A DNA stretch of 64,000 nt, taken from Microbispora sp. H11081 (GTDB lineage Bacteria; Actinomycetota; Actinomycetes; Streptosporangiales; Streptosporangiaceae). This document shows, in pieces, positions 42,270 through 62,796 of the stretch (its first letter is position 1; the number at the start of each line of letters is the position of its first letter). Made by a program: the position numbers and the translations under genes. The stretch is from contig NZ_JABBWV010000004.1 of assembly GCF_012999535.1 (NCBI RefSeq), forward strand, positions 248,001-312,000. The letters are read 5' to 3'. The notes beneath the pieces are model-generated. The model was not told the origin of the DNA, did not search any database, and was given only the letters and a program-made list of their open reading frames with translations.

Positions 42270-42342
42270 GCCCCCGTAGCCCAATGGCAGAGGCAAGCCC
42301 CTTAAAAGGGCTGTGGTGTGGGTTCGAGTCCCACCGGGGGCA
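42270..42342 (+). tRNA. tRNA with UAA anticodon, short variable loop (target of integration)
   Basis: 73 nt fold as a cloverleaf: acceptor GCCCCCG/CGGGGGC, a D arm at 42279-42294, anticodon stem AGCCC/GGGCT with loop CTTAAAA, a five-base variable loop, T arm GTGGG-TTCGAGT-CCCAC, and discriminator A. The anticodon position reads TAA, which would decode UUA (Leu), but real tRNA-Leu has a long variable arm and this one does not. The next bases are CTA, not CCA. The 3' half from 42298 is the left copy of the element's attachment repeat. The identity as Leu is therefore uncertain. Confidence 0.75.
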
Positions 42343-42343
42343 C
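42298..42343 (+). repeat. attL, left 46-bp attachment repeat
   Basis: Identical over 46 bp to 60738-60783. It covers the anticodon loop, anticodon stem, T arm and acceptor of the tRNA, so integration keeps the tRNA sequence whole. The sequence after it is CTA-type here and CCA-type at the right copy. Confidence 0.92.
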
Positions 42344-42472: not shown

Positions 42473-43846
42473 TCATTCCTCGCTCAGCACGTCGGCGATG
42501 CGCTGCCGTGCCTGTTCTTCCTGGCCGGAGATGCACTTCGCATAGACGTGCAGTAGCACGGCCACGCTGTGGCCGGCCCACTCCGCGACCTGGGGAGCGG
42601 GCACACCGGCGTTCAGCCATGTCGAGACCGCCGCATGGCGAAGGTCGTAAGGCCGCTTCGCCAGCGGGGAGGCGAACTCCTCTTCCGTAAGCGCTGCCTT
42701 TCGTGCCTTCCGCCAGACCCGGTGATACGTGCTCTCGTGCAGGTACGTCCCGCCCTTGAGAGCCCAGAAGATCCGGCCGTCCGGCGCGGCGCCGAGGTCC
42801 TTCAGGTGCGCGTGCAGAATCCGCGTCAGCTCGGGAGGACAGGGGGCGATGCGGCTCTCGCCTCGCTCGCGATGCTTGAGAGGACCGGGATCGCGCCGAT
42901 CGCCGCTGTTGGACCACGCCGTGCCCGGGGCCGGGTTGGCCGTCTCCAGGATCAGTTCCCCCCACCCCTCCTCGAGAAGCACGAGATTGCTCTTGCGGAG
43001 GTTGACGGCCTCCTCGGGGCGCAGCGCGGCGTAGTACATGAGCGCGAAGAACGCCACCAGCCGCGGGCCGCTGGGCTTCTGGGCGCGTACGGCCTCCAGG
43101 AGCGCGCGGGCCTGAGCGGGATTCACCACGACGCGCCTGTCCACCTGCCGTACGGACTTGGTCGCCTTCCACGGGAGATCGGTGATCGGGTTCCGGTTGA
43201 GCAGCCGGAGCTCTATGGCGTACTGCATCGCGTTGACGAGCACGCCCCGCGTGCGCTGGACCGTGCTCGCGGCCATCCGCTTGCCATCCCGGCGGGTCGA
43301 GAGCGCCTCCAGAGCCTTCCTGGCCATCGAGGGGTCCTCCAAGTCGCCTACGGGGCGCGTGTTCTGCTTGAGCCACTCCACGGCCCTGCGAAGGTCCTCC
43401 GGAGGCTCACCTTCGTTGCGGCGGCGGGTGTTGAACGCCCACTCCAGAAGAGCCCGACGCAACGTGTCGTCGTCCGGGCGCCCACGGCTGGTGGAGAGCA
43501 GGGCGAAAGTGACGTCCCGAAGGGTGCTCGCGGAGATCCGCCGGGAGTGGCCGGCCAGGTTCGGCCACTTCATGTCCATGTAGGCGCACGCGAAGTCGAA
43601 CCAGCTCATGACCCGCTCCGCACGCTCCCAGGACACCGGCAGTCCGGTGCCCGTGCTGAACGCCTCGCCGCGGCGGGCCGCCGACAGCAGATCAGCACGG
43701 TAGCTCTCGGCATGCGCCTTGGTCGCGAAGGCCATGCGGTGCACGCGACTGTCGACCTTCCACCGCACGCGGTAGGTGGTCGCCTTCTCATGCTCGCGGA
43801 TCTCGATTTTGTAGATCCGCACGTCGTAGGTGCGCTCCTTCAGCAA
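42473..43846 (-). CDS. int: Tyrosine-recombinase integrase
   Basis: 457 aa. Catalytic residues are visible: Arg I in YYAALRPEEAVNL, HxxR in RPYDLRHAAVSTW, His/Trp box in AEWAGHSVAVL, and the nucleophile Tyr in LHVYAKCISG. The N-terminal part is a SAM-like DNA-binding domain. It lies 130 bp from attL and points to it, the usual arrangement. The start overlaps the excisionase stop by seven bases. It integrates and, with Xis, excises the element at the tRNA. Confidence 0.95.
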   Translation of the reverse strand: MLKERTYDVRIYKIEIREHEKATTYRVRWKVDSRVHRMAFATKAHAESYRADLLSAARRGEAFSTGTGLPVSWERAERVMSWFDFACAYMDMKWPNLAGHSRRISASTLRDVTFALLSTSRGRPDDDTLRRALLEWAFNTRRRNEGEPPEDLRRAVEWLKQNTRPVGDLEDPSMARKALEALSTRRDGKRMAASTVQRTRGVLVNAMQYAIELRLLNRNPITDLPWKATKSVRQVDRRVVVNPAQARALLEAVRAQKPSGPRLVAFFALMYYAALRPEEAVNLRKSNLVLLEEGWGELILETANPAPGTAWSNSGDRRDPGPLKHRERGESRIAPCPPELTRILHAHLKDLGAAPDGRIFWALKGGTYLHESTYHRVWRKARKAALTEEEFASPLAKRPYDLRHAAVSTWLNAGVPAPQVAEWAGHSVAVLLHVYAKCISGQEEQARQRIADVLSEE

Positions 43847-44037
43847 GCGGCGTCCTCCAGTGTGGCGAGCCAGCGGTCAAGGTCCGTACGGCGGATGCGC
43901 AAGTCGCCGTTCGGGAGTTTGAGGCAGCGAGGCGCGCGGCCCTTGGCGCGCCAGTCGTAGAAGGTGGAGCGGGAGATGCCGAGTTCGGCGCACAGCTCGG
44001 CTACGGTCAGCGGTTTGCTCGTGGCGGCGGTGGCCAT
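43840..44037 (-). CDS. xis: Excisionase-like helix-turn-helix protein
   Basis: 65 aa. LTVAELCAELGISRSTFYDW is a MerR/AlpA-type helix-turn-helix, followed by the wing CLKLPNGDLRIRRTDLDRWL. AAAGGA lies before the ATG at 44037; the longer frame upstream is low-complexity. Partner of the integrase by position and overlap; it probably bends the att DNA for excision. Confidence 0.88.
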   Translation of the reverse strand: MATAATSKPLTVAELCAELGISRSTFYDWRAKGRAPRCLKLPNGDLRIRRTDLDRWLATLEDAAC

Positions 44038-44125
44038 GGGCGTCCTTTCGGGTTCCGAGATCGGAGGCTGAGGCGGCGATAGACGTCGTGGCGGGGAGCG
44101 CGAAGAGAGCGGTTTTGAGGGGGTG

Positions 44126-44265
44126 AGCCGTCCCAGCCGTCCCAGGCTCATTTCCGCAGGTCAGCCCTGGGACGGCTTTTCTGCTGGGACGGCTCAAGCC
44201 GTCCCAGGGATTGGAGCCGTCCCGCTGTGACCTGGGCTGATGATGCTGGGACGGCTGGGACGGCT
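44126..44265. repeat. Eight copies of GGGACGGCT in mixed orientation
   Basis: The nonamer GGGACGGCT occurs at 44169, 44186, 44248 and 44257, and its complement AGCCGTCCC at 44126, 44135, 44197 and 44215. Copies 44184-44194 and 44197-44207 form an 11-bp hairpin with only CA between. The array covers the space upstream of xis and the last codons of the DUF3631 gene. It may be a replication, Xis or repressor site, and the central hairpin could terminate the leftward transcript. Confidence 0.8.
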
Positions 44266-45372
44266 ACCCCTCTCGAACGGGACCACCTCCCCCTCTGGGA
44301 CGGGGTCGAGAGTGGGGCAGTAGCGGGTCCAGGCGTCGATGAAGTCGGCCCGCTGGTAGCCCTTGGCCTGGGTGCCATCGGGGAAGCGGATGTTGCTCGA
44401 CCGGATCTCGTACTCGCGCAGAATCGCCGCGAGCCGCATCGGCGTGAGTCCCGTGGGGCCGTAGTCGGCCCAGGGCGCTTCCGGGTCGGCCTTGAGCCTT
44501 TGCAGCAGATCGGCGGTGGCCAATGCTGTGTCGGAGCCGAACGCCGTGCGGCAGTCGGCCAGCAGCCGAACGCGGGTGGAGGGCTGGCCGTTGTCGTCGG
44601 CTTCGGCGGTCAGGGCGAGTACGGCGGCGCGGGCGCGCTCGGTCCAGTGGTCGCCGGCGTGGTCGGCGACGACGACGAGGGGTTCCCAGGTGTCGGCGGC
44701 GCGGTCTTCGACGGGCATGGGTGGTTCGGCCTTCTCCAGGGTGTCGAGGTCGGCGCGGAGCCATGCGGCGAGGTCGGCGGCGAGCTGGCGGAGGGCGGGG
44801 CGGTCGCGGCGGTGGCGGTAGGGGGCGACGGTTTCGCCGGGGCCGCGTCGGCGCATGCGGATGACGACGGCGCGGTCTTCGATGGTGTCGGGCATGGCGC
44901 CGATCCCCGCCAGGGCGGCCATGGCGAAGGTCGGGATGGACTCGACGCGGCCGGTGTTGGCGTCGTAGCGCTTGGCCGGCCGGTTGCGCTGGTGCCCGGC
45001 GTTCAGCAGCCCGCGCAGGTCCTCGTTGCCGTCTGCCTTGGGGCCGAAAATGGTGTCGGCCTCGTCCACGAGCAGCGTCGGCGGGTCGTCGGTGATGGAG
45101 CGGTAGACGGCGGCGGGCGAGGAGTTGACGGTGATGAACGGGTCGTGGCAGGTGGCCTCTACAACGTCGAGCAGCCGGGACTTGCCGCAGCGCTTCTCAG
45201 GCGCGCGGATAACCAGTCGAGGGGCATGCGGCCAGGCCGGTTGGGCATGGGTCGCGGCGATCCACAAGACCACGGCGTCGGCGGCCTCGGGGGTCGGCAG
45301 GATCACGTAGCGCGTGAGCGCGGCCAGCAGCGAGTCCAGCAGCACGGCGCCACGGTTGGCGGATGGGTTCAT
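44194..45372 (-). CDS. DUF3631-domain ATPase (replication helicase-like)
   Basis: 392 aa. Walker A is RAPEKRCGKSRLLDV and Walker B TLLVDEADTIFG. DLRGLLNAGHQRNRPAKRYD and the DUF3631 block (EPPMPVEDRAADTWEPLVVV to GLTPMRLAAILREYEIRSSN) follow. In AICEs and phages this protein follows the prim-pol and is thought to act as replicative helicase or initiator. The ATG has GGAGCC upstream; the longer frame is a shadow of the prim-pol gene. The C-terminus runs through three copies of the nonamer array. Confidence 0.85.
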   Translation of the reverse strand: MNPSANRGAVLLDSLLAALTRYVILPTPEAADAVVLWIAATHAQPAWPHAPRLVIRAPEKRCGKSRLLDVVEATCHDPFITVNSSPAAVYRSITDDPPTLLVDEADTIFGPKADGNEDLRGLLNAGHQRNRPAKRYDANTGRVESIPTFAMAALAGIGAMPDTIEDRAVVIRMRRRGPGETVAPYRHRRDRPALRQLAADLAAWLRADLDTLEKAEPPMPVEDRAADTWEPLVVVADHAGDHWTERARAAVLALTAEADDNGQPSTRVRLLADCRTAFGSDTALATADLLQRLKADPEAPWADYGPTGLTPMRLAAILREYEIRSSNIRFPDGTQAKGYQRADFIDAWTRYCPTLDPVPEGEVVPFERGSRPSRPSIISPGHSGTAPIPGTA

Positions 45373-45392
45373 GAGTGCGGCTCCTTCAGCGG

Positions 45393-46292
45393 TTATGCGG
45401 CGACGGTGCGGGGGCGCTTGGCCCCGTGGCGCAGCCCGGATGCGACGGTGCGGTCGGCTTCGCGCCGGTCGAGCCCGGCGGCGACCCCTGCCTGTCCAAG
45501 CAGGGTGGTGACCTGGTCGGCGTCGAGCGCGCCGCCGGCGACGAGTTGCCCCAGGGCGATCGCGGCCAGGAACAACGTGCGGTTGCGCTCTCCCACGGGG
45601 GCCGCTGCGACGCGATCCAACTCGCCGTTGATCGCCGCGCGCAGGAATGCGCCACGCCGGTTTTCGGGCAGGGCCAGGCGGAGCGGCTTGGCCGCCTGCG
45701 GGGGCGGGGGGACAAGCCGCTTGGACAGCCAGGGGGGCAGCGGGGCTGGGGGCGCGTTGTAGATGACCTCGTAGGCGCCGGTTCCGTCCGACAAGTCCAC
45801 GAAGCTGCCGGGGCCGATGACGTACCCACCGGCCGCGCGGGTGTCGATCAACCAGCCAAGTCCGTTGCCCTTGTCGCCTTCGGTGTTGCGCAGTTCGGGA
45901 CCATCCGGCGCGGCGTAGTACAGGTGGATCCCACCGCGCCGGGTACGGACCTGGAAGGTCTCCAGCGTCGGGAACGGCTGCCCGGCCCGTTCGCAGACCA
46001 ACGCGAGCACGTCCGCGCCGTCGTTGACGCCAGGCAGATCCCACACCGGCGGCGGCACCTCGCCCGGCTTCGGGGTGTCGAGGTCGATCACCACCAGGCG
46101 CGAGGGACCGCACGCGATGCCGATGTTGTACGGCTGCTGTGCCCACCAGCGGCGGATGACTTCGGGGTCAGCGGTGGCGCGGCGTTCCCAGTGGTCGAAC
46201 CCTCGCGGCGGGGTCTTCCCACCAGGGACGAGCGGGAAGACGTGCCAGCCACGGGCGGCGGCGGCCAGGGCGTAGCGAAGCTGATCGTTCAT
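45393..46292 (-). CDS. Bifunctional primase/polymerase (RepSA-type prim-pol)
   Basis: 299 aa. The archaeo-eukaryotic primase fold is seen in GWHVFPLVPGGKTPP, NIGIACGPSRLVVIDLDTP (DxD metal site), RRGGIHLYYA, and LGWLIDTRAAGGYVIGPGS. It starts replication of the excised circle and lies just downstream of the GTGACA-rich region proposed as origin. Together with the DUF3631 gene it replaces a single fused RepSA. Confidence 0.9.
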   Translation of the reverse strand: MNDQLRYALAAAARGWHVFPLVPGGKTPPRGFDHWERRATADPEVIRRWWAQQPYNIGIACGPSRLVVIDLDTPKPGEVPPPVWDLPGVNDGADVLALVCERAGQPFPTLETFQVRTRRGGIHLYYAAPDGPELRNTEGDKGNGLGWLIDTRAAGGYVIGPGSFVDLSDGTGAYEVIYNAPPAPLPPWLSKRLVPPPPQAAKPLRLALPENRRGAFLRAAINGELDRVAAAPVGERNRTLFLAAIALGQLVAGGALDADQVTTLLGQAGVAAGLDRREADRTVASGLRHGAKRPRTVAA

Positions 46293-46564: not shown

Positions 46565-48862
46565 TCAGGCGGCGCGGTCGTAGCCGTCGCGGCCGTGGTC
46601 GTCGTGGTCGAGTGGTGACAGGTCGGTGATGGTGTAGGCGCGGGCGGTCCCGGACTTGGTGATGGTCAGGACGCCGCGGTCGGTCAGGTCGGACAGCACC
46701 TTGTAGATCCAGCCGCGTCCGTTGCCGGTCTTGTACCGTACGGCGGTCAGCTCGTCGTCGGTGGCGGTGAAGGTGGGGTTGCCGGTCTGGTGGCGGTGGC
46801 GCAGCCAGGCGTAGACGAGCTGGCGGGCCTGGGCTGGGTCGAGCTTCACCATGGGACCGTCGGCCTGCAGGGCGTCGGCCTCCTCCGGGGTGGGCTGGCG
46901 GATGGCGTCGTCGGGGCCGGCCGACAGGGACGGGTCGGGATCGTCCATGTGGGCGAGGGCGGCGGTGACGACGTCCCCGGTCGCGCGCAGCTGCTCCATC
47001 AGCTGCGGAGCGTTGCGGTCGTCGGCGGCCACCAGGACGGGCCGGACATCGCCGCCGGGGGCAGGCGGACCGACGATGTCCTTGCGCTGGAGGGCTTCCA
47101 GCAGGCGCAGGCAGTCGGTCCAGGCGATGCGCAGCTTGCGCTGCAGCATGGCCGGTGAGGCGTGCTGGGTGGCAATCACCAGCTGGGCGGCGTCGGCCAG
47201 CAGTTCGGCGAAGTCGGCGGCGAACTCCTCCTGCTCATCCTGCGGCTCGTACCCGCTGCCGCCGGCGGGCGTGGCCGCCGTGCTGGCGGCGGGGGCCGGG
47301 CCGGTAGGGCGGGCCAGGGCGGCCGTGAACTCGTCCACCTCCTTGCTCCTCGCGGGGTAGATGGCGGCGTGGGCGGCCATCGCGGCGCGGGCTTCGCCGC
47401 TGTTGCGGCCCCAGGTGTAGGTCCGCAGAGGCATGGCGTAGTGGGTGGCGCGGATGCTGCGGGCGTCCAGGTAGGCCATGCCGGGGTAGTGGTCTTCCCA
47501 CTCGTGCGGGACGACGTCGGCCTTACGCTGCCGGGCCGACACGCCGTACTTGACGTCGTCGGGGTCCGACAGGCCGAAGCACATCTTGGCCATCTGGGAC
47601 CGGAACAGGGTGGGGATCTGCGTGTAGTCGGCGCGCTGCAGCGACAGGATCACGCTCCCGCCGGCCGACCGCATCTCCTTGAGAATCTCCCCAAGCCGTT
47701 CCTCATCGTCGGCGCTGAGCTCGTTGACGAGCTTGGCGATCTCCTCGATGTGTAGGTACCAGTAGGTCAGCCCGCAACCCGGCTCCCAATCGCTGTAGCC
47801 GTGGTCGGCCAGCCACTTCGTCCGCTGCGGGATCGCCTCATGCATGGCGCGGATCAGCTCTACCGCACCGGCCTTGCCGGTCTCGAACCGGTGCAGGCCC
47901 TCCCGCAGCGGCCCCATGGTCTGGTCGTCCTTGGAGATGTCGATGGAGAACACCGCCGCGTCCTTGCGGGTGATGATCTCCCCGATGATGTTCCACGCCC
48001 CGCCGATGCTCTTGCCGGACCCGGTGCGGCCCATGATCTGCAGGTGGTGCCCGACGAACCGATACTCGACATCGTCCCCGTCCTGATACAGGCCGATGCG
48101 CAGCGGCTTGTCGATCGAGGCGCCGGGGTGGGACGGGCCGGGCCAGGCGATGGGCTGGCGGATCGCGCGGGGGTCAGAGACGGTGATGTGCGCGCGGTCG
48201 GCCCGGTCGTCGTCGCGGGCGACGATCACGCTGCCGGGCGGCAGCTGCATCCCGGACTCGATGCGGTCGGTGGCCTTGATGGCGTCGTCGGCGGTCTTCT
48301 CCCCGGGCGGGAGCTGCATCTGACCTTTCACCTTGTGGTCGGTCACCTGGGTCGCGCGGACCTTCGCGCCCTTGAGCCCGGCCTGCTCGCGGGCGCGGGC
48401 GAACAGCGTGCCGAGGGCGTCCCCGCCGTCGTGCTCGCCGTCGCCGCCTGTGTTGCGGATGACGGTGCGGATGTTCCACGACAGGGCCAAGGTCGCGCCG
48501 CCGAAGAACAACGCCCCGTTCACGACCGGGGTGCCCAGGCCGGTGATGGTGGCAGTGGTGAACCACGCCGACGCGGCGGCGGTGGTGATGGTGGCGTGCA
48601 GGCGTCCGATCAACCTGCGCTGGTGGGTGATCGCCCAGGTAAGAGCTGTCAGGGCGGTGGAGCCGAGGGTGCAGCCGACCGCCGCCCATGTCACCGCCGG
48701 CGCGTCTCCCCATAGGGCGTGGGAGATGGCCCCGGCGGCGGCCTCCACACCGAGGATGACCCACGGCGGGACCAGCACGCCGACCTTGGACAGCGTCGCG
48801 GCGGCCAGGCGTTCCATGGTCGCGTCCTGCACCAGCTGCAGGGAGGTGGTGTTGCGTGCCAT
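46565..48862 (-). CDS. tra: FtsK/SpoIIIE-type DNA translocase (conjugal transfer protein Tra)
   Basis: 765 aa. Two to four membrane helices near residues 25-130, then the motor domain: Walker A IMGRTGSGKSIGGAWNII, Walker B WYLHIEEIAKLVNEL, and GGSVILSLQRADYTQIPTLF. The C-terminus (ATDDELTAVRYKTGNGRGWI to DRGVLTITKSGTARAY) is a winged helix that probably recognises clt repeats. TraB-type proteins move double-stranded DNA between mycelia as hexamers. ATG 48862 overlaps the upstream stop (ATGA). Confidence 0.93.
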   Translation of the reverse strand: MARNTTSLQLVQDATMERLAAATLSKVGVLVPPWVILGVEAAAGAISHALWGDAPAVTWAAVGCTLGSTALTALTWAITHQRRLIGRLHATITTAAASAWFTTATITGLGTPVVNGALFFGGATLALSWNIRTVIRNTGGDGEHDGGDALGTLFARAREQAGLKGAKVRATQVTDHKVKGQMQLPPGEKTADDAIKATDRIESGMQLPPGSVIVARDDDRADRAHITVSDPRAIRQPIAWPGPSHPGASIDKPLRIGLYQDGDDVEYRFVGHHLQIMGRTGSGKSIGGAWNIIGEIITRKDAAVFSIDISKDDQTMGPLREGLHRFETGKAGAVELIRAMHEAIPQRTKWLADHGYSDWEPGCGLTYWYLHIEEIAKLVNELSADDEERLGEILKEMRSAGGSVILSLQRADYTQIPTLFRSQMAKMCFGLSDPDDVKYGVSARQRKADVVPHEWEDHYPGMAYLDARSIRATHYAMPLRTYTWGRNSGEARAAMAAHAAIYPARSKEVDEFTAALARPTGPAPAASTAATPAGGSGYEPQDEQEEFAADFAELLADAAQLVIATQHASPAMLQRKLRIAWTDCLRLLEALQRKDIVGPPAPGGDVRPVLVAADDRNAPQLMEQLRATGDVVTAALAHMDDPDPSLSAGPDDAIRQPTPEEADALQADGPMVKLDPAQARQLVYAWLRHRHQTGNPTFTATDDELTAVRYKTGNGRGWIYKVLSDLTDRGVLTITKSGTARAYTITDLSPLDHDDHGRDGYDRAA

Positions 48863-49242
48863 CACAGATCGACCTTCCCCTTGTACTCCGCGCGCTTGGT
48901 GTCGCGCTTTTCCATCGCTTCCAGGGCCTCGAGGAACTCCTGCCGGAACTGCAGGTTGAACTTCACCGCCTCCGCCGAGATGCCTTGGGCGATCTCGCGG
49001 GCCTCCCGCAGTTGGCGGGCCACCCGCCACGCGCGGGCGCGCACGTCGATTCCCCGCAGCAGGGGGTGACCCTTGAGCTGGCTCATCGCGGCCTCGGCCG
49101 CGGCTTCGGCGTGGTCGAGCTCGCGGGCCAGGTCGTGCGCGAAGCGCTGGGTGGCCAGGGTGTAGGCGGCGATTTTCGCCGGTACCTTGCCGTGGAACTC
49201 GATACCGGCGATCTCGTCCAGCCGGTCGTTACCGGTCCCCAC
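48862..49242 (-). CDS. Small element protein, helical (paralogue 1)
   Basis: 126 aa, not recognised. The core IAGIEFHGKVPAKIAAYTLA, AEAAAEAAMSQLKGHPLLRG, and RARAWRVARQLREAREIA is nearly all helical and charged. It resembles the next protein upstream (49264-49581) in order and spacing of motifs, so the two are tandem paralogues. Overlap with tra suggests a transfer accessory role. No membrane helix or Cys cluster. Confidence 0.75.
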   Translation of the reverse strand: MGTGNDRLDEIAGIEFHGKVPAKIAAYTLATQRFAHDLARELDHAEAAAEAAMSQLKGHPLLRGIDVRARAWRVARQLREAREIAQGISAEAVKFNLQFRQEFLEALEAMEKRDTKRAEYKGKVDL

Positions 49243-52858: not shown

Positions 52859-53644
52859 CTATCGCGCAGGAAGTTGGTAGGAGAGGACGTAGGCGTCGCT
52901 CGACATGACGGTGTCGCAGACTTCGACGGGCTTGCCGGATTCCGCGTAGGCCGTCCGGATCAGGTGGAAGACCGGCACGCCGGGAGCAAGCTTGAGCGCC
53001 CTGATCTCGTCGCGCAGAGGCATCCGGGATCGGATCTCCTCATCGAAGTGATCCAGTCGGTGGCCCAACTCCTCCAGCCGCGCATAGATGCCGCCGGGGC
53101 CGGAGTCCGGTTCTGCGATCCGCGTACCGCGGGCGATGCTTGAGGGGATGTAGGAGACGGCCGTCTCTACAGGATGGCCATCGATCAGGTACCGGCGCGA
53201 CCTAGTGATCACAGTCTCGCCCTGGTGGAGGCCGAGTCGGTTGCCGACATCGTCTGGCGGCTGGGCCTCGCTGATCTGGATCGAGTCGACGGCCGGCTTG
53301 CCGCCGGCACCCTCCGTTTCGACGATGAAGGCGGCTTTGCCTTGCTCCCGGTGGCGACGGGCGAAGCGATCGGAGGCCAGGCGTCGCACAGGCGGCCGGG
53401 AACGCACAAACACTCCGCGGCCGTGCTCGGCAACCGTCAGCCCTTCGCTCTGCAAGAGCTGGAGGGCGTTACGGATGGTCATGCGGGCAACACCGTAGTG
53501 AGCGATGAGTTGGCTCTCCGAGGGCACTTTCGACCCGGGCGGAAGAGTGCCATGGTTCATGGCCTCACGGAGGTGATCAGCGATCTGCTTGAAGACCGGG
53601 CGGTCAGACGTCGGGTCGAGTCCTGGCAGGGCGATGTCCGCCAC
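52859..53644 (-). CDS. GntR-family repressor with UTRA domain (KorSA/TraR-like)
   Basis: 261 aa. The N-terminal winged helix is PVFKQIADHLREAMNHGTLP, PSESQLIAHYGVARMTIRNA, and GRGVFVRSR. The C-terminal UTRA ligand domain includes HQGETVITRSRRYLIDGHPV and VFHLIRTAYAESGKPVEV. GGAGGAG upstream points to GTG 53644 rather than GTG 53659. Orthologues repress tra and pif-type genes in AICEs. It lies directly beside the operators in the transfer promoter; the region before it (53660-53717) also has a partial palindrome (CATACGTGTAT) that may be its own operator. Confidence 0.88.
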   Translation of the reverse strand: MADIALPGLDPTSDRPVFKQIADHLREAMNHGTLPPGSKVPSESQLIAHYGVARMTIRNALQLLQSEGLTVAEHGRGVFVRSRPPVRRLASDRFARRHREQGKAAFIVETEGAGGKPAVDSIQISEAQPPDDVGNRLGLHQGETVITRSRRYLIDGHPVETAVSYIPSSIARGTRIAEPDSGPGGIYARLEELGHRLDHFDEEIRSRMPLRDEIRALKLAPGVPVFHLIRTAYAESGKPVEVCDTVMSSDAYVLSYQLPAR

Positions 53645-53717
53645 GGTCAACTCCTCCACTCGTACATACGTGTATTACGGTGAGTCTAATTGGGCTGATG
53701 GGCCATCGGAGGGCCGC

Positions 53718-54161
53718 ATGGATCAGGACAACCGCCACTCGGTGAGCGTCGCCGGCGTCGTTCTCGACGAGCAGGGCCGCGCGCTACTTATCCAGCGGCG
53801 GGACAACGGCCACTGGGAGGCGCCGGGCGGAGTCCTGGAGCGTGACGAAGACATCCTTACGGGCCTTCGCCGGGAAGTTGCCGAGGAGACTGGCCTCGAC
53901 GTCGAACCGGAAGCGCTAACCGGTGTCTACAAGAACATGGCCCGGGGGATTGTGGCTCTTGTCTTCCGATGCCGTGCCGTTAATGGAGCTCTCACTGAAA
54001 CGGATGAAACGCAGGCCTTCCGATGGGTGACCGCTAACGAGGTTTCGTCAATCGCGTCCGAGGCGTTCGCGATCCGCATCCTCGACGCGATGCGGCATAG
54101 TGACCACCCGGCAGTCCGGCAGCATGACGGGGTGCACTTGATCGCACGTAACCGCCCTTGA
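53718..54161 (+). CDS. NUDIX hydrolase (Pif-like)
   Basis: 147 aa. The Nudix box is GGVLERDEDILTGLRREVAE followed by ETGL, with all Glu ligands present. SVAGVVLDEQGRALLIQRRD is the usual entry strand. GGAGGG precedes ATG 53718. In pSAM2 the Nudix protein Pif prevents redundant transfer between donor cells; position next to the GntR gene supports this role here. Base composition drops after this gene. Confidence 0.85.
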   Translation: MDQDNRHSVSVAGVVLDEQGRALLIQRRDNGHWEAPGGVLERDEDILTGLRREVAEETGLDVEPEALTGVYKNMARGIVALVFRCRAVNGALTETDETQAFRWVTANEVSSIASEAFAIRILDAMRHSDHPAVRQHDGVHLIARNRP

Positions 54162-54853: not shown

Positions 54854-57800
54854 CTATGCCGGTGATTGTTCCAGTTCATTGTGAATCATAACCAATGGAG
54901 ACACCACGAACCCTAGCGTCACCAATCGTGTTGCGACATCAGCTGGACTTTTTCCTGTCTTTCCAGCCGCAGCGATTAGTCGGCCGGGCGATATCGGCTG
55001 ATCAGGGGATAGCCAGGGGCGGTGGCCGTCCAGGTTCGTTGAGACGATGATGTCATCCATGGGCTCAGATTTGGTTGCGAGACTAGCAGGGTCTGGTGTG
55101 GTGAACCCGAGCATTTTGAGGCGGGCGGCTACCTGTGCCGGAGTTTGCCCCGTCTCGACAGCGGCAGCGATCACATGCCCAATAGGGACCGGATTATCAA
55201 TGTGCAACCACGGTGAACTTCCGGTTCTGTCTGCGGTGACGATTATGCGATCGTTGGGTTCAATGTTGGTGGGGAGGGTGGCGGGGTCTGGTGTGGTGAA
55301 CCCGAGCTTGTGGAGGCGGGCGGCTACCTGTGCCGGAGTTTGCCCCGTCTCGACAGCGGCAGCAATCACATGCGCGTGCGGGACCGGCTGATCAATGGCC
55401 AGCCACGGTGAGCGGCTGTCCAATGGCGCGCGGACGAAAATGCGATCGCTGGGTTCAATGTTGGTGGGGAGGGTGGCGGGGTCTGGTGTGGTGAACCCGA
55501 GCTTGTGGAGGCGGGCGGTTACCTGTGCCGGAGTTTGCCCCGTCTCGACAGCGGCAGCGATCACATGTCCAATGGGGACCGGATTATCAGCGGCGAGCCA
55601 CGGTTGCTGGCCGTCCAGGTCTGCGGTGACGATTATGTGATCGTTGGGTTCAATGTTGGTGGGGAGGGTGGCGGGGTCTGGTGTGGTGAACCCGAGCTTG
55701 TGGAGGCGGGCGGCTACCTGTGCCGGAGTTTGCCCCGTCCCAAGAGCGGCGGTTGTCACACGGCCAGCTGGTATCGGTTGGTCAGCAGGTAGCCAGGGTC
55801 GATTGCCATCCATGTTAGCGCTGGTGATTATGTGATCGTTGGGTTCAATGTTGGTGGGGAGGGTGGCGGGGTCTGGTGTGGTGAACCCGAGCTTGTGGAG
55901 GCGGGCGGCTACCTGTGCCGGAGTTTGCCCCGTCTCGACAGCGGCAGCGATCACATGTCCAATGGGGACCGGATTATCAGCGGCGAGCCACGGTTGGTGG
56001 CCGTCCAGGTCTGCGGTGATGATGATGCGGTCGCTGGGGTCAGTGCTGGGGGGGAGGCTGGCCGGATCGGGCGTGGAGAACCCAAGCTCTTTCATGCGAG
56101 CGGCCACATCCCTCGGACTCCGCCCCGTCTCTGCAGCAGCAGCCGTTACGCCTGCAGGCGTCACGGGATGATCAGCGGCTAGCCCAGGGGAGGGGCGGTT
56201 CAATTTCATGATGATGATGATGATGCGGTCGCTGGGATCAGTGCTGGTGGGGAGGGTGGCGGGGTCTGGTGTGGTGAACCCAAGCTCTGTGAGGCGAGCG
56301 ACCACCTGCGCAGGGGTTTGGCCGGTTCCCGCAGCGGCAGCGATCACATGCCCAGCGGGGACCGGATCATCAATGGCGAGCCACGGTTGGTGGCCGTCCA
56401 GATGTGCGCTGATGATGGTGCGATCCGTGCGATTAGTGCTGGGGGGGAGGCTGGCCGGATCGGGCGTGGAGAACCCAAGTTCTGTGAGGCGAGCGACTAC
56501 CTGCGCAGGGGTTTGGCCCGTCCCCACAGCAGCAGCGATCACATACCCGAAGGGGACCGGGTCTTCGTCGGACAGCCAAGAATTATTTTGTAGGGCCGTC
56601 GACCTATCGTCCCCACGCCTTCGGCCACTATTCAAAAGAAGGTAATCGGACGGGCGTGCAACCGGAATATGCGAAAGTGATACCACAGACAAGCCAGGGA
56701 TGAGCCCCGACCTGCTCCAGGCCAGTGCCCGCCAGGTGGATATAACATCAGGGATATACGCCGTGCGTCCTCTGTTATACGCTCGCATACCTGACCTGAG
56801 ATGGACGGGGCTGCCTTTGCTTATCCCCCCGAGCAGCAACTTTTTATCCGGGAAGCAGCCAACTATAGTGATGTCGGCTTCCTGTCCAGCTGCGATCCAT
56901 GGCCGACGGCCCACAGTCAGAGCTTGTTCAAAAATGACATCAGCCAGGGCGGGGTCGTAATCGGCCAAATAGAGCAGCCACTCATGGGTGAGTACCTTGG
57001 CTGCCTCCGGTGTCAGTGCAGCGCTCTCCTGGTGAAGTAGTTTTCTTACCCTCTTCTTGTCATAATCGAGCATCTGTTTGCGGTCGACGGTCAATTGTGG
57101 CATAAACGGACCGGTGAGGTTGACGACCGCACCGAATAGTGGCGTTCCTGCCCATAGTCCGTCAGCGAGAATTCCGCCAGAGGAGTCACACCACCAAACC
57201 TCGGGGGTTGTGGTTGCGTCGACGTGCTCGGCACGACGTCGGGCGCCCGCGGCGAGAGGGTCGTCGGACCCGATGGGAGCGATTTCGGACAAACGGCCGG
57301 CCCGCCATGTGTGGCTTCCGCCCGGATCGGTAGCGGTCACCTGATACTCAGGAATCCAAAGAATTCGACGCAGTAGGTCAACGCACGAGACCGGCGTGTC
57401 AGTGTCACGGAGGTGCAGGCGGACTGTGGTGAACGAACGCTCCCCTGAACCGAGATCGCGGACCCGGAACAAGGCGCCCGGCCCTGCGATGTGCACTTCA
57501 AGGACGTTTCGTGGCCGACCCGCTCGGTCGAAGCGGCAGGTGGTCACTGTAATCTCATCGGCCAGCATGAAGTAGCTAAGGACGCCTATGCCGAATCGGC
57601 TATTCGGATGGAGCGTGATTCCCGCTTCCTCCCACTCGGCCTGCTCCTCGATGAACTCGGGAAGGTCAGTGAAGCGGATTCCGGCGTAAGAGAAGATGCT
57701 CACGAGTTCCCGCATCCCCATCCCGACGCCATTGTCGGTGCAGTCGAGATATGGTCTGCCATGCTCGTCAATTCCCTGAGTGAAGACTATCTCGCCAAGC

Positions 57801-59872
57801 CAGGGGGCTGAGCGGGCACCCTTGGACCGCAGGTACTCTCCCCTCGCCTGCCGGTATCGGCAGGCATCGAGCGCGTTCTGGTACAATTCCCGGATTGCCA
57901 GAGCTGGGTCGCCATACAGCTGTGCACCCATTAGTAGTTCTTGGATGCGATCATCGGCAAGTCTGAATCGGAAACCCGACGAGTCATAGGCTCGACTTCC
58001 GCCGGCCAGGGTCACTGCCTGTACCCGGTCCCCCGTTGCATGCGCTGGCATATCTGTCAGGGGTACCAAAGACCCGTTGTCCCCTGCGGCGGTATCGATC
58101 TCGGTGAGTAGCGCATCGATCTGGGCAGCGTGCTCGCGTAGAGCCAGTTCAACCGCAGGATGGTTGCAGCGCGCCTCTAAGATTCTTGTCCGGCCTTGAG
58201 CGATCCATTTCGCCTCTCTGATCGTCGTATGTATGTCAGGAATGTTGACCCCAAAGCTGATCCCAAGGTGATCGACCACTACCTCAGGCAGCCCAGTGGC
58301 ATCGATCGTGAAAAGGTAAGCTGTAGTGAGCAGGTAGGCGAGCAGCTGTTCGCGTACACCCTGCTCGTTCTCCGTCCCGCCAGCAACTTGCCGGATCGGG
58401 CTCAGCGTGGACTTCCGATCTGAACGGGTAAGCAACGCGGTGTCCATCTGCAGAGCGCGGAGCATCTCCAGCACTCGCTCTGGTTCGAATACCTCTCCGG
58501 TGAGTATGTCGAGGTCCCCGCTCCCCGCCACGTTCTCAAAAGCGAGTAGCTCGGAGATGATCTGGCCGGGCTGATAGCAGTCAGGCTGGCGTGCCAGCCA
58601 CCGGTGGAACAACCACCAGCCGATGGCTGAGACGACGGAAGCATCTCCGGCTTCGGAAGCACGCTTAGCGCGGCGAAGCAAGCGCCCGTGGCCAGCCGCG
58701 AAGTTCCTGAATCGCCTGCCTTCGTCGGAACTGTCGCCAACCAAGTCCTGCGGATTTACATGACATCGCCGGGCGGCATGCCGGGCCCAGAACGACTCAT
58801 ACAGGAATGGGAACGCGACCAGTAGCGCTGCCTCCGCCGACGAGAGCTTCAGTTTGTCGGGATTCAGCACCGTCTGCAGCAGCCAGCGGATCTTTGAATT
58901 CATACGGACGGCAAATTGCTGATCCCGCCACGGATCGTCCTTCAGCGTCCTAGCGTCACTTTCCCATTTCGCTGCAAGCTGCTCAACTAAAGCCACGGTA
59001 GCTTCATATAAGCCATCGGCGCCTGGACCGTCGCCCACTTGTTTCCATGCCACGTGATCGCGAGCCTGGATTGCCCAGTTGTCTCGGCGACTCGTGTCCT
59101 GATCGCGCTCTTTTCGAGGGAAAACGACGAAGCCATTAGTGTCCGTCTCGGTCAGGACCCTAATTTGTTGTCTTGGTACCTGAGAGTCTGACGCGAGGCT
59201 GTCGAGCGCATCCTGGAGGGTCGGCTTAAGCTCGGCCAGTGTGCGCGGCCCGCTCTCGTTCTCTGCAATTTCGGTGAGAGAACGGGAGAACAAGCTGAAC
59301 GTGGCCGCTCCCGCTGTGACATAACGTGCTCGTTCCCCTGGGGAACAGGCATAAACGTAGGCGAACCTCCGCGTCCCGGTCCGCTCGACACGGCGTTCTG
59401 ACCAACTCGTAGCGTTTATGGCTCCCATTTCGCGAAGGTCGATGCCTTCACGGCAGGCATCGATAAAAACGAGAACATTACCCGCCCGGCTGTGTTCGAC
59501 GTATCGGCCGAACTCTATTGGTACACACCCGGAGGGGAAGTTGCGTGAACGGGTGAAAGCATCCGAGGGAACTAGATAATCCGTTCCCGAATGATGCACG
59601 CCGTGCCCGCTCAGGTATATAAGCAGAGTCTGCTCAGGGGTTGCATCTTCAATAAAGAATTCAACTGCGCTATTAATCTGGCCTAGTCCGGTTCGATTCA
59701 CATCGTGAACCTCTACGCTGTATCCGACGTCGCGGAGCACTGTCTCCAGTGCGGCCATGTCGCTTACAATAAAGGGGAGGTCTTTGATCGCCCCATCCTC
59801 GTAGAAAGGAACGCCGATCAGCAGCGCGCGAAACGGGCTCGCCCCTAGGGAGCCATCACCGGGCGTGGTCAC
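54854..59872 (-). CDS. Caspase-like peptidase / GHKL (HSP90-like) ATPase / nine-repeat protein
   Basis: 1,672 aa. Residues 15-250 are a C14 caspase-like domain (ALLIGVPFYEDGAIKDLPFI, catalytic His90 in YLSGHGVHH, Cys140 in VFIDACREG), apparently active. Residues 260-620 are helical and not recognised. Residues 640-1000 are a GHKL/HSP90-type ATPase: AIRELYQNALDACRYR (Glu662, Asn666), CTDNGVGMGMRELVSIFSYA, and SRFGIGVLSYFM. Residues 1098-1660 hold nine 65-residue repeats with core GHVIAAAVETGQTPAQVAAR and LGFTTPDPATLPT, probably small helical (wHTH-like) units. The GTG start overlaps the upstream small gene by four bases. Likely an NTP-regulated conflict system; the target and trigger are unknown. 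Confidence 0.85.
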   Translation of the reverse strand: MTTPGDGSLGASPFRALLIGVPFYEDGAIKDLPFIVSDMAALETVLRDVGYSVEVHDVNRTGLGQINSAVEFFIEDATPEQTLLIYLSGHGVHHSGTDYLVPSDAFTRSRNFPSGCVPIEFGRYVEHSRAGNVLVFIDACREGIDLREMGAINATSWSERRVERTGTRRFAYVYACSPGERARYVTAGAATFSLFSRSLTEIAENESGPRTLAELKPTLQDALDSLASDSQVPRQQIRVLTETDTNGFVVFPRKERDQDTSRRDNWAIQARDHVAWKQVGDGPGADGLYEATVALVEQLAAKWESDARTLKDDPWRDQQFAVRMNSKIRWLLQTVLNPDKLKLSSAEAALLVAFPFLYESFWARHAARRCHVNPQDLVGDSSDEGRRFRNFAAGHGRLLRRAKRASEAGDASVVSAIGWWLFHRWLARQPDCYQPGQIISELLAFENVAGSGDLDILTGEVFEPERVLEMLRALQMDTALLTRSDRKSTLSPIRQVAGGTENEQGVREQLLAYLLTTAYLFTIDATGLPEVVVDHLGISFGVNIPDIHTTIREAKWIAQGRTRILEARCNHPAVELALREHAAQIDALLTEIDTAAGDNGSLVPLTDMPAHATGDRVQAVTLAGGSRAYDSSGFRFRLADDRIQELLMGAQLYGDPALAIRELYQNALDACRYRQARGEYLRSKGARSAPWLGEIVFTQGIDEHGRPYLDCTDNGVGMGMRELVSIFSYAGIRFTDLPEFIEEQAEWEEAGITLHPNSRFGIGVLSYFMLADEITVTTCRFDRAGRPRNVLEVHIAGPGALFRVRDLGSGERSFTTVRLHLRDTDTPVSCVDLLRRILWIPEYQVTATDPGGSHTWRAGRLSEIAPIGSDDPLAAGARRRAEHVDATTTPEVWWCDSSGGILADGLWAGTPLFGAVVNLTGPFMPQLTVDRKQMLDYDKKRVRKLLHQESAALTPEAAKVLTHEWLLYLADYDPALADVIFEQALTVGRRPWIAAGQEADITIVGCFPDKKLLLGGISKGSPVHLRSGMRAYNRGRTAYIPDVISTWRALAWSRSGLIPGLSVVSLSHIPVARPSDYLLLNSGRRRGDDRSTALQNNSWLSDEDPVPFGYVIAAAVGTGQTPAQVVARLTELGFSTPDPASLPPSTNRTDRTIISAHLDGHQPWLAIDDPVPAGHVIAAAAGTGQTPAQVVARLTELGFTTPDPATLPTSTDPSDRIIIIIMKLNRPSPGLAADHPVTPAGVTAAAAETGRSPRDVAARMKELGFSTPDPASLPPSTDPSDRIIITADLDGHQPWLAADNPVPIGHVIAAAVETGQTPAQVAARLHKLGFTTPDPATLPTNIEPNDHIITSANMDGNRPWLPADQPIPAGRVTTAALGTGQTPAQVAARLHKLGFTTPDPATLPTNIEPNDHIIVTADLDGQQPWLAADNPVPIGHVIAAAVETGQTPAQVTARLHKLGFTTPDPATLPTNIEPSDRIFVRAPLDSRSPWLAIDQPVPHAHVIAAAVETGQTPAQVAARLHKLGFTTPDPATLPTNIEPNDRIIVTADRTGSSPWLHIDNPVPIGHVIAAAVETGQTPAQVAARLKMLGFTTPDPASLATKSEPMDDIIVSTNLDGHRPWLSPDQPISPGRLIAAAGKTGKSPADVATRLVTLGFVVSPLVMIHNELEQSPA
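54893..56581 (-). repeat. In-frame 195-bp repeat array encoding nine 65-residue units
   Basis: The array makes up the C-terminal third of the caspase/GHKL gene. The same stretch recurs at exact 195-bp steps, for example from 55261, 55456, 55651 and 55846, with near-identical DNA over more than 100 bp. Units at the two ends and the third from the N-terminal side have diverged. Central units look recently amplified, so the unit number may vary between strains. Confidence 0.92.
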
Positions 59873-60207
59873 CGGCCGAACGTCAGCGTGATGGCGCCCT
59901 TACCGGCCGCTTGCGTGCTTACGCCGACAAGAGCGATTCCGCCGCTGGCTGTGACCTCGAAGGTGATTTGCGCCTCCTTCAGCGGCAAACCGCCCTCAGT
60001 TGCTGCGACCTCGTCGAACAACTCCCGCAGAGCGCCTACGGTGCGACGCAGGTTTTCTCGTAACACCGCCACAGGGATGTGCCGTACCGAGAGCGTCGTT
60101 TCGCCCCGACTGAATATCCCCATGTCCCCCTGGGTGCCGTCGCCCTCGGCGTCGTTAACGAGGAACGGGAGGGTCTCGGTAGGTATCTCCGCTGCGGCAT
60201 CAAACAT
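59869..60207 (-). CDS. Small peptidase-co-occurring protein (Pepco/Trypco-like)
   Basis: 112 aa. GDMGIFSRGETTLSVRHIPV, AVLRENLRRTVGALRELFDE, and AQITFEVTASGGIALVGVST then GAITLTFGR, the layout of small actinomycete proteins coded next to caspase- or trypsin-type conflict genes. ATG 60207 has AGCAGG upstream; the frame further upstream is not conserved-looking. The stop overlaps the giant gene's start, so the two are coupled and probably act together. Its role (sensor, inhibitor or substrate) is not known. Confidence 0.7.
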   Translation of the reverse strand: MFDAAAEIPTETLPFLVNDAEGDGTQGDMGIFSRGETTLSVRHIPVAVLRENLRRTVGALRELFDEVAATEGGLPLKEAQITFEVTASGGIALVGVSTQAAGKGAITLTFGR

Positions 60208-60394: not shown

Positions 60395-60616
60395 GTGGCC
60401 GACCATATGACAGGCCGAATTGAGCGAGGCGACCTCAAGCCGGGACAGCGGCTACCTTCGGAGCTGGATCTCTCCGAGCAGTACGGCGTGGCACGGATGA
60501 CCATCAGGCGCGCCATGAAGGAGTTGCGGGATCGGGGCCTCATCCGCAGCGTCCACGGCAAGGGCACCTACGTGCAGGCGCCGCCGGCCACCGAAGCCGC
60601 TGTCACGGACGAGTGA
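60395..60616 (+). CDS. GntR-type HTH-only protein
   Basis: 73 aa. VADHMTGRIERGDLKPGQRL, PSELDLSEQYGVARMTIRRA and GLIRSVHGKGTYVQAP form a complete GntR winged helix with no ligand domain. An in-frame stop lies just upstream, so it is not an obvious N-terminal loss from a longer frame. It is divergent from the caspase operon across about 190 bp of AT-rich DNA and could repress it; it might instead be a remnant of a larger regulator. Confidence 0.65.
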   Translation: MADHMTGRIERGDLKPGQRLPSELDLSEQYGVARMTIRRAMKELRDRGLIRSVHGKGTYVQAPPATEAAVTDE

Positions 60617-60737: not shown

Positions 60738-60783
60738 CCCCTTAAAAGGGCTGTGGTGTGGGTTCGAGTCCCACCGGGGGCAC
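60738..60783 (+). repeat. attR, right 46-bp attachment repeat
   Basis: Perfect copy of 42298-42343. It is followed by CATCGCC so that GGGGGCACCA is read, meaning the chromosome before insertion carried an encoded CCA end. Not a second tRNA, because the 5' half is missing. Confidence 0.92.
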
Positions 60784-61992: not shown

Positions 61993-62796
61993 ATGCCTAA
62001 GATCAATGTCTATCTGCCGGACGATCTCGCGGAGGCGGTCAAGGAGGCGGCCCTGCCGGTGTCCGCCATCTGCCAGCGCGCGCTGGAGCAGGCGGTCCGC
62101 CGGGTGGCGGCCATCAGGGAGAGCGTCCTCGGCGACGTCGAGATCGACGACCCCCGCCTGTCGCACTTCACCGCCAGGACCCGCGCGGTCCTCCGGCTGG
62201 CGCTGGAGCGGGCGAGGACCGAGGGCGCCTCGGGAGTCGGCACCGAGCATCTGCTCGCCGCGATGCTGGCCGAGGGCCGGAACCTCGCCCTGCACGTCCT
62301 GCGCGCCATCGAGATCGAGCCCGCCCTGCTCGAACGCGACCTCGCGAGCCGCCGGTCGTCCGCACCCGCCCCGGCGGCGGGCGCGGAGCCGGCCGGGGAC
62401 GGGGGAGCGCGGGAGGACGGTCCGATCCGGTTCGAGACGACCGCCGCCAACGCGCTCGAACTGACGGTGACCGAGGCGCACGCGCTGGGGCACAACTACA
62501 TCGGCTGCGAGCACCTGCTGCTCGGCCTGGTCGGGGAGCCGGACGGGGTCGCCGGGCAGGTGCTGCGGGCGAGGGGCGCCGAGCCCCGTCTCACGCGGCG
62601 CGCGGTCACCGCGGCGCTCGCCGGTTACGTCCACCTCCGGGCGCAGGGGCAGGAGGCCGCCAAGGACACCACTTCGGACACCATGCGGATCGTGGCGGCG
62701 GCCGTACGGCAGGAGATCGCTCCGCTCCTGCGGCGCGTCGAGCGGCTGGAGCGGCACGCCGGGGTCGGCGCGCCCGCCGAGGACGGCGCCTCGTGA
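61993..62796 (+). CDS. Ribbon-helix-helix protein with Clp N-terminal repeats
   Basis: 267 aa. MPKINVYLPDDLAEAVKEAA is a CopG/Arc-type ribbon-helix-helix start. Two Clp_N (R-domain) motifs follow: GVGTEHLLAAMLAEGRNLAL near residue 80 and IGCEHLLLGLVGEPDGVAGQ near 175. No AAA+ ATPase is present, so this is not a Clp chaperone but may be an adaptor or regulator sensing unfolded substrates. The stop overlaps the GTG of the asparaginase-like gene (GTGA), so they form an operon. Confidence 0.8.
   Translation: MPKINVYLPDDLAEAVKEAALPVSAICQRALEQAVRRVAAIRESVLGDVEIDDPRLSHFTARTRAVLRLALERARTEGASGVGTEHLLAAMLAEGRNLALHVLRAIEIEPALLERDLASRRSSAPAPAAGAEPAGDGGAREDGPIRFETTAANALELTVTEAHALGHNYIGCEHLLLGLVGEPDGVAGQVLRARGAEPRLTRRAVTAALAGYVHLRAQGQEAAKDTTSDTMRIVAAAVRQEIAPLLRRVERLERHAGVGAPAEDGAS

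Follow-up and report, generated by a model that had tools for sequence, protein, structure and literature searches.

What does a caspase-like protease do when it is fused to an HSP90-type ATPase and a long repeat array, coupled to one small partner gene and carried at the end of a mobile element? This question is raised by two overlapping genes in the window, the whole 64,000-nucleotide stretch of Microbispora sp. H11081 that was analysed. The answer that we favour, with somewhat more confidence than doubt, is a predicted defence module of two genes, proteolytic and gated by an ATPase, that an AICE carries as cargo and whose action would leave the infected cell arrested or dead.

Two coupled genes and their products

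The larger gene (54854..59872, reverse strand) begins with a GTG codon and encodes the 1,672-residue protein of the original prediction, in which an active-looking caspase, a GHKL/HSP90-type ATPase with intact motifs and nine 65-residue repeats had been recognised; all of these parts were recovered here. The N-terminal effector position is filled by the caspase domain (residues 15–233; 59174..59830, reverse strand), which was identified by PF00656 (E 7e-14), by alignments and by a Foldseek match to the MALT1 paracaspase. Its catalytic dyad is intact, with His90 (codon 59603–59605, reverse strand) in the motif SGHGV and Cys140 (codon 59453–59455) in FIDACREG. The locus is the sole Peptidase_C14 match in its own genome, and PADLOC recognised the caspase once (31 bits, E 3e-8) but gave no match of any kind for the partner gene.

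The GHKL ATPase region (residues 628–906; 57155..57991, reverse strand) carries the motifs RELYQNALDA (Glu662, Asn666), DNGVGM (713–718) and FGIGV (760–764), and E662, N666, D713, G715, G717, G761 and G763 are invariant in 49/49 rows of an alignment that leaves out 8 further caspase loci. NCBIfam HSP90/HtpG models match inside residues 647–823 with scores far under their full-length cut-offs, and a profile–profile comparison aligned residues 645–824 with HtpG-like proteins of Lentzea (E 1.9e-10). A part resembling the HSP90 middle domain follows at about residues 824–1000 (56873..57403, reverse strand), recognised from the Foldseek match to TRAP1 and from R931 (in PQLTVDRKQML), which is likewise invariant in all 49 aligned rows; R931 may correspond to the catalytic arginine of HSP90, a position beyond the HtpG profile comparison, which spans only residues 645–824. 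A structure model of residues 1–1090 built from the 49-row alignment (pLDDT 86.6, pTM 0.73) matched the N-terminal plus middle domains of TRAP1 (E 9.8e-10 over 484 alignment columns), a whole-chain match that is partial (TM-score 0.42 by target, rmsd 10.6) and bears on the domains rather than on their relative placement, and the MALT1 paracaspase (E 1.5e-8). Sequence profiles agree with both assignments (MALT1 3e-9, HtpG 3e-9).

Between the caspase and the ATPase lies an iHD-CE domain (residues 266–619; 58016..59077, reverse strand; PF24401, E 2.4e-98, 330 bits against a cut-off of 27), which also matches the related HD-CE model PF24391 (E 3e-33). HD-CE degrades nucleotides, and this homology could mean that the module acts by depleting nucleotides through its HD-CE-like domain, the caspase serving only to process its own protein. 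However, the domain scores its 330 bits as iHD-CE, and residues 266–619 contain no His-Asp doublet, so that the HD domain appears degenerate (we read the 'i' of the Pfam name as inactive); we give the nucleotide-loss explanation very little credence and retain the caspase as the predicted output of the defence module.

The remainder of the protein consists of nine tandem repeats of the Pfam family PF24410, 'wHTH-Hsp90_Na-assoc' (54857..56581, reverse strand), matched in nine stretches with 470.8 bits (E 1.5e-144) and with a period of 65 residues, one repeat having 66. This was the only PF24410 locus found in its own genome, where 150 of 392 candidates were scored. A model of residues 907–1672 (pLDDT 82.2) has the secondary structure of a regular helical series and gave no match in the PDB at E<=0.001, the best being PPR10 (E 0.024). 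The iHD-CE domain at residues 266–619, the part resembling the HSP90 middle domain and the membership of the repeats in a named family had all been overlooked in the original prediction. We attach least weight of all to the reading that the module has decayed or travels as an inactive passenger, given an open frame of 1,672 codons with intact catalytic motifs.

The upstream gene (59869..60207, reverse strand) encodes the small protein that had been assigned to a family found beside conflict peptidases, and its 112 residues indeed match Pepco (PF24393, E 2.8e-17). Its ATG at 60207, the start used in the original prediction, sits after the purine-rich GAGAGCAGGA, and its stop codon overlaps the GTG start of the large gene (GTGA), in agreement with the predicted coupling. 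It is the sole Pepco in its own genome and found no match in a PDB sequence search; across 40 Pepco sequences the conserved positions are mostly Leu, Gly and Thr, and no evident catalytic set is present among them. A divergent ORF that comprises only a GntR DNA-binding domain (60395..60616, forward strand; Pfam GntR, E 7e-19) is a possible local regulator. Promoter and terminator scans gave signals at chance level only.

The mobile element and its cargo

Carriage on a mobile element, also part of the original prediction, was borne out by an AICE-like element of 18.4 kb that lies between the two copies of an exact 46-bp repeat from tRNA-Leu and has the caspase pair as its final cargo. One att site (42298..42343, forward strand) is the 3′ end of a tRNA-Leu(TAA) gene (42270–42343), and the other (60738..60783, forward strand) is an exact copy of these 46 bp. 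From left to right the element encodes a tyrosine integrase (42473..43846, reverse strand; PF00589, E 2.5e-10), an excisionase-like protein (43840..44151, reverse strand; TIGR01764, HTH_17), a DUF3631 protein (44194..46146, reverse strand) that is the likely AICE replication protein (Rep), a TraB/FtsK-like transfer protein (46565..49030, reverse strand; FtsK_gamma and NF041214, E 3.7e-126, 422 bits and thus under that model's cut-off of 800), a GntR/UTRA regulator (52859..53659, reverse strand) and a NUDIX protein (53589..54161, forward strand). The gene set of an AICE (integrase, excisionase, putative Rep and transfer protein) is present together with the corresponding integration feature, direct att repeats at a tRNA-gene 3′ end. 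The lower GC content that had been noted also holds, with 0.602 for the operon against 0.697 for the remaining parts of the element and 0.721 for the window outside the element.

Both flanks of the element were matched in 15/15 genomes of the genus, its own included, although some matches were partial or on separate contigs. In one congener (G597) a base alignment shows the tRNA gene running directly into the right flank, which represents an empty site. In three others (G187, G168 and G155) the distance from the tRNA end to the right-flank match is 0.25–0.37 kb by coordinates only, that match beginning about 325 nt into the flank. The iHD-CE domain was found in 0/9 of the congeners listed. Phage records gave no match, and among plasmid records there were 15 with a match, none of which covered >80% of the query at one place.

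The position of the pair invites a further explanation, namely that the module guards the element by excluding competitors or by killing cells that lose it in an addiction-like manner, with Pepco as a labile caspase inhibitor. The pair is the final cargo and adjoins the att site, it forms a coupled two-gene operon with the small protein first, an order seen in many antitoxin–toxin pairs, and a divergent GntR DNA-binding ORF lies beside it. However, the integrase, excisionase, replication and TraB proteins of this element had no relative (E<=1e-8) in 94 stretches around related loci, a set in which six are the same places twice and in which only the backbone genes of this element were sought. 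The linkage of module and element is thus not conserved, and carriage by an AICE was not seen in these stretches. Relatives of the integrase itself are common, being present in 113/200 family genomes at E<=1e-80, its own included; eight integrase-relative regions were examined for backbone genes, with ORFs listed for one.

Relatives, partners and a proposed effector exchange

The family is widespread, and the caspase–iHD-CE–HSP90–repeat architecture is not unique to the window. When 84,980 species genomes were scanned at E<=1e-3, 383 stretches proved to encode a relative, and the best 80 of these, chosen by the HSP90 module, were examined (L040–L119); by record title these comprise 75 actinobacteria, 3 cyanobacteria and two records named Methanosarcinales archaeon and Nealsonbacterium. 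At closer range the distribution is patchy, with iHD-CE in 11/200 family genomes including its own (10/199 others) and above the cut-off in 3/396 genomes of the phylum, again including its own. Using profiles derived in this work from 13 caspase and 5 Pepco sequences, which distant members may escape, we found both caspase and Pepco at 39 of the best 80 of 383 loci, caspase without Pepco at 17, neither at 24 and Pepco alone at none. Wherever the two occur together Pepco is upstream and on the same strand (39/39), with its stop 7–41 nt ahead of the caspase domain in 35/39 and 174–222 nt ahead in three (L080, L088 and L090), while in L097 it stands ahead of the first of two tandem large genes.

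Ten loci among the best 80 of 383 encode an intact caspase with no Pepco by profile, a combination that an essential antitoxin would forbid, and together with the missing linkage this leaves the guarding of the element, in our judgement, an unlikely role. One of the ten, from Actinomadura rayongensis (L111), has an EACC1 gene in the place of Pepco. For the defence module that we favour, Pepco is most likely a dedicated peptidase partner, predicted to act as a substrate with an effector or complex-forming fragment or as a bound regulator. Five of the six Pepcos in the family survey adjoin iHD-CE; the sixth (G167, locus L039) is divergent from a gene for a trypsin-like peptidase (Trypsin_2, E 4e-16) that is followed by an NB-ARC/TPR gene. 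The idea that Pepco never occurs without a caspase consequently holds only inside the best 80 of 383 loci, and because the G167 Pepco adjoins a trypsin-like peptidase, Pepco goes with peptidases beyond the caspases. On the tree, a sign test of Pepco against caspase in independent pairs was not significant; caspase changes are few, so this test cannot support coupling of the two.

Evidence on the role of the caspase came from its exceptions. Both His and Cys are intact in 50 of 57 caspase-bearing proteins (those of 56 of the best 80 loci plus the window), and the seven that have lost the caspase cysteine (L066, L068, L069, L070, L076, L079 and L091) alone carry a TIR domain at the N-terminus, called by Pfam for two of them and by similarity search for all seven. 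None of these TIR forms has a Pepco by profile. In a quick tree they form a single Frankiaceae clade that has full SH-aLRT support, so that TIR gain and caspase loss count as one event and not seven. Our reading is that TIR took over the output of the caspase in this clade, as the coincidence of TIR gain with a dead caspase would suggest, which fits the caspase being the effector.

A caspase is missing from 25/88 tree rows, which go back to three changes on the tree and group as Lentzea, as Dactylosporangium/Micromonosporaceae, and as Actinomadura with Streptomyces, Kitasatospora and G021. Since these rows keep the iHD-CE–HSP90–repeat core, the core may serve other roles too. For an N-terminal HTH in the caspase-less forms there was one weak match (L103, 17.3 bits against a cut-off of 27) and none in L107, L116 or L044. 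Such forms, which recur in Lentzea, Dactylosporangium and Actinomadura, in several species of each, and the relationship to HSP90 would suit a chaperone–protease of host physiology, active in stress or development of filamentous bacteria and mobile here by chance. A housekeeping chaperone gene should nevertheless be more stable than the iHD-CE family, which is patchy, has a TIR swap in one clade and uses EACC1 as an alternative partner; we consider a physiological role quite unlikely. For the defence module, the TIR form with its dead caspase, the neighbourhood of the G167 Pepco and the patchy distribution strengthen a role in biological conflict. The anti-phage or anti-element function originally proposed is plausible on this evidence, whereas its association with AICE carriage was not seen in the 94 stretches around related loci.

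Pfam already has names for the caspase, iHD-CE, repeat and Pepco families, and an HSP90-module conflict class, with the HD-CE naming, reportedly goes back to work by Nicastro, Burroughs, Iyer and Aravind in NAR in 2023. The features of this class, as drawn from the Pfam names (PF24391, PF24401, PF24410 and PF24393), are all present here, namely an N-terminal effector domain, iHD-CE, an HSP90-type ATPase with intact nucleotide motifs, PF24410 repeats and a neighbouring Pepco. We place the module in this known class, from whose other members that of the window differs in its nine unusually alike mosaic repeats and its AICE location. The order of effector, NTPase and repeats is also that of STAND/NLR (Avs-type) sensors, which have an N-terminal effector, a central NTPase and C-terminal repeats, although their NTPase is of the P-loop STAND type and that of the window protein is of the HSP90 type. 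Sensors of this kind are also treated in PMC10907252. Among GHKL proteins, the Shedu protein VcSduA loses phage defence when its ATPase is mutated (PMC12137116), and there too a GHKL ATPase is proposed to control a fused effector, which is however a nuclease at the opposite end of the chain.

Two described caspase systems resemble the module in their gene pairing. In Canu (PMC12799240), a MALT1-like caspase activates an adjacent, dedicated pro-nuclease and defends in E. coli; the likeness lies in a MALT1-like caspase with a dedicated partner encoded alongside, and the difference in Ig/TPR domains there against an HSP90-type ATPase here. No Pfam match to an MBL-fold nuclease, a feature of Canu, was obtained among the neighbouring proteins scanned, with some small ORFs outside the scan, nor was there any match to a MoxR–vWA pair or to VMAP, as in VMAP-type ternary systems, among the neighbouring proteins scanned. 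EACC1–caspase pairs, which are predicted conflict systems according to Kaur et al. 2020 (eLife 9:e52696), likewise combine a constant small partner at the 5′ side with a 3′ gene for an N-terminal caspase and a variable part; their partner is EACC1 and that of the window is Pepco, and the window caspase misses the EACC1-type model NF047832 (60.6 of 140 bits), while the relative from Actinomadura rayongensis shares EACC1 with them. The main texts of Kaur et al. 2020 and 2021 do not mention Hsp90, GHKL, HD-CE or Pepco. Literature searches on iHD-CE, Pepco and HD-CE gave, among the matches listed, titles on other topics.

The repeat array and the proposed mechanism

The repeats of the window protein have a mean within-protein identity of 0.68, the highest of 73 proteins measured from 81 given; L106, which was left out of these 73, has three repeats that are 88–92% alike in their DNA cores. 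Identical DNA runs of 109 nt (R4/R5), 115 nt (R4/R7) and 101 nt (R5/R7) compare with shuffle means of 20–25 nt, and these lengths were reached in 0/2,000 shuffles; the result for R4–R7 also stands for third codon positions alone. In R6 the core carries single changes, giving runs of 69–84 nt. Over R1–R8, to which the test was applied without R9 and independently of any division into core and variable columns, 12/28 pairs beat all 2,000 shuffles, with no signal for R1 against R4–R8 or for R3 against R4, R6 and R7. When columns were split into core and variable, a choice made post hoc after looking, pS in R4–R7 was 0.46 in the variable segments and 0.017 in the core. As such runs of identical third positions are hard to obtain from purifying selection on the protein, repeats 4–7 are most simply read as products of recent recombination, or gene conversion, between repeats; the high variable pS and low core pS likewise indicate recombination and not fast amino-acid change. 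Positive selection was considered and rejected, with pN/pS of 0.67 in the variable segments of R4–R8 (bootstrap 0.42–1.11).

The clustering of variable columns is weak (103/5,000 shuffles were as high), and column variability correlates with that of nine other arrays at a Spearman coefficient of 0.20–0.53, a result that structural constraint by itself could explain. The mosaic is no general feature of the other arrays: beyond the window it was seen in one pair of L089 (core 0.94, variable 0.56), one pair of L062 has the reverse pattern (core 0.47, variable 0.85), and L111, L052 and L106 contain mostly copies of whole repeats. Mapped on the structure model, the variable part covers the border between repeats, with its strand and linker, and the beginning of helix 1. 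The R4–R7 cores of ~100–115 nt might serve as recombination handles that shuffle the diverged segments, making the array a diversifying recognition array, an idea that we hold to be doubtful.

The module reading is supported by intact catalytic sets, by the fusion, by the gene overlap, by the recurrent pairing of Pepco and caspase and by the location on an integrated element. The repeats had been predicted as sensor and we infer the same role: the array would detect an invader molecule or a change that the invader causes. ATP makes HSP90 ATPases close their N-domains, and MALT1-type caspases become active once they are brought into proximity; for this reason we propose an ATPase-gated caspase. 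ATP would drive the HSP90 module to close or dimerise, and this change, passed on through iHD-CE, would gather the caspase domains and so activate them, much as NLR and apoptosome ATPases do. An Asp two residues before the Cys has a role in MALT1-type S1 pockets, and as Asp138, two residues ahead of the catalytic Cys, is invariant, the caspase is probably specific for basic residues; it would cut Pepco, host proteins or both. Pepco would then serve either as a bound regulator or as a substrate that yields a fragment with an effector or complex-forming role. The infected cell would be arrested or killed, and the module is probably a defence of the cell-suicide type.

A caspase fused to an HSP90-type ATPase opens the gating idea to a direct test with a single cassette of two genes. 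The Frankiaceae forms, with a TIR domain added and the caspase Cys lost, predict that the caspase is the effector, and the mosaic array yields a concrete hypothesis on the residues that recognise the trigger. Should the array diversify as suggested, a mobile HSP90-gated caspase would be able to change its recognition without loss of frame, in the manner of an NLR whose repeat sensor can evolve. If HSP90-type ATPases gate death effectors, they would form a further class of switch beside STAND and GTPase sensors.

Surroundings of the operon and possible further elements

Divergent from the operon, and lying between it and the att site, window positions 60395-60616 encode a GntR DNA-binding domain that lacks a ligand domain. 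Beyond the element, though still close to its att site, positions 61993-62796 encode a protein that has Clp N-terminal domains and whose start weakly resembles CcdA. In a congener (genome G119, contig C104, 68538-71920) the 46-bp att sequence occurs a second time, as an exact copy some 3.4 kb behind tRNA-Leu; one more small element may be inserted at this site. The window's own genome holds a second gene for a related tyrosine integrase, at 48% identity (G000:C11:110333-111679), which may mark a further element of this kind.

Partner genes, gene order and spread

Among the best 80 (L040-L119) of 383 stretches encoding a relative, caspase-Pepco forms extended to cyanobacterial records and one record labelled Methanosarcinales archaeon (L101, L104, L119 and L106). 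An EACC1 gene occupied the position of Pepco ahead of the caspase-iHD-CE-HSP90 gene in L111 (9567-9920), and in L097 (6542-15771) one Pepco gene was followed by two caspase-iHD-CE-HSP90 genes in tandem. At a separate locus in genome G167 (L039:3372-6947), a trypsin-like peptidase gene preceded an NB-ARC/TPR gene, with a Pepco-family gene divergent from the peptidase gene.

Forms with an inactivated caspase or none

Seven Frankiaceae proteins (L066, L068, L069, L070, L076, L079 and L091) carried a TIR domain fused N-terminal to the caspase; all seven had lost the catalytic Cys, and no Pepco was found beside these loci. The dead active site of L079 also contained a tandem short-peptide insertion (repeated ADDFA). 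No caspase was found in the iHD-CE-HSP90-repeat proteins of Lentzea (L044-L047, L049, L050), of Dactylosporangium and a Micromonosporaceae MAG (L054-L057, L059, L062, L063, L074), or of Actinomadura, Streptomyces and Kitasatospora (L103, L107, L109, L112-L118). These caspase-less forms recurred across several species within a genus, and may have been retained vertically.
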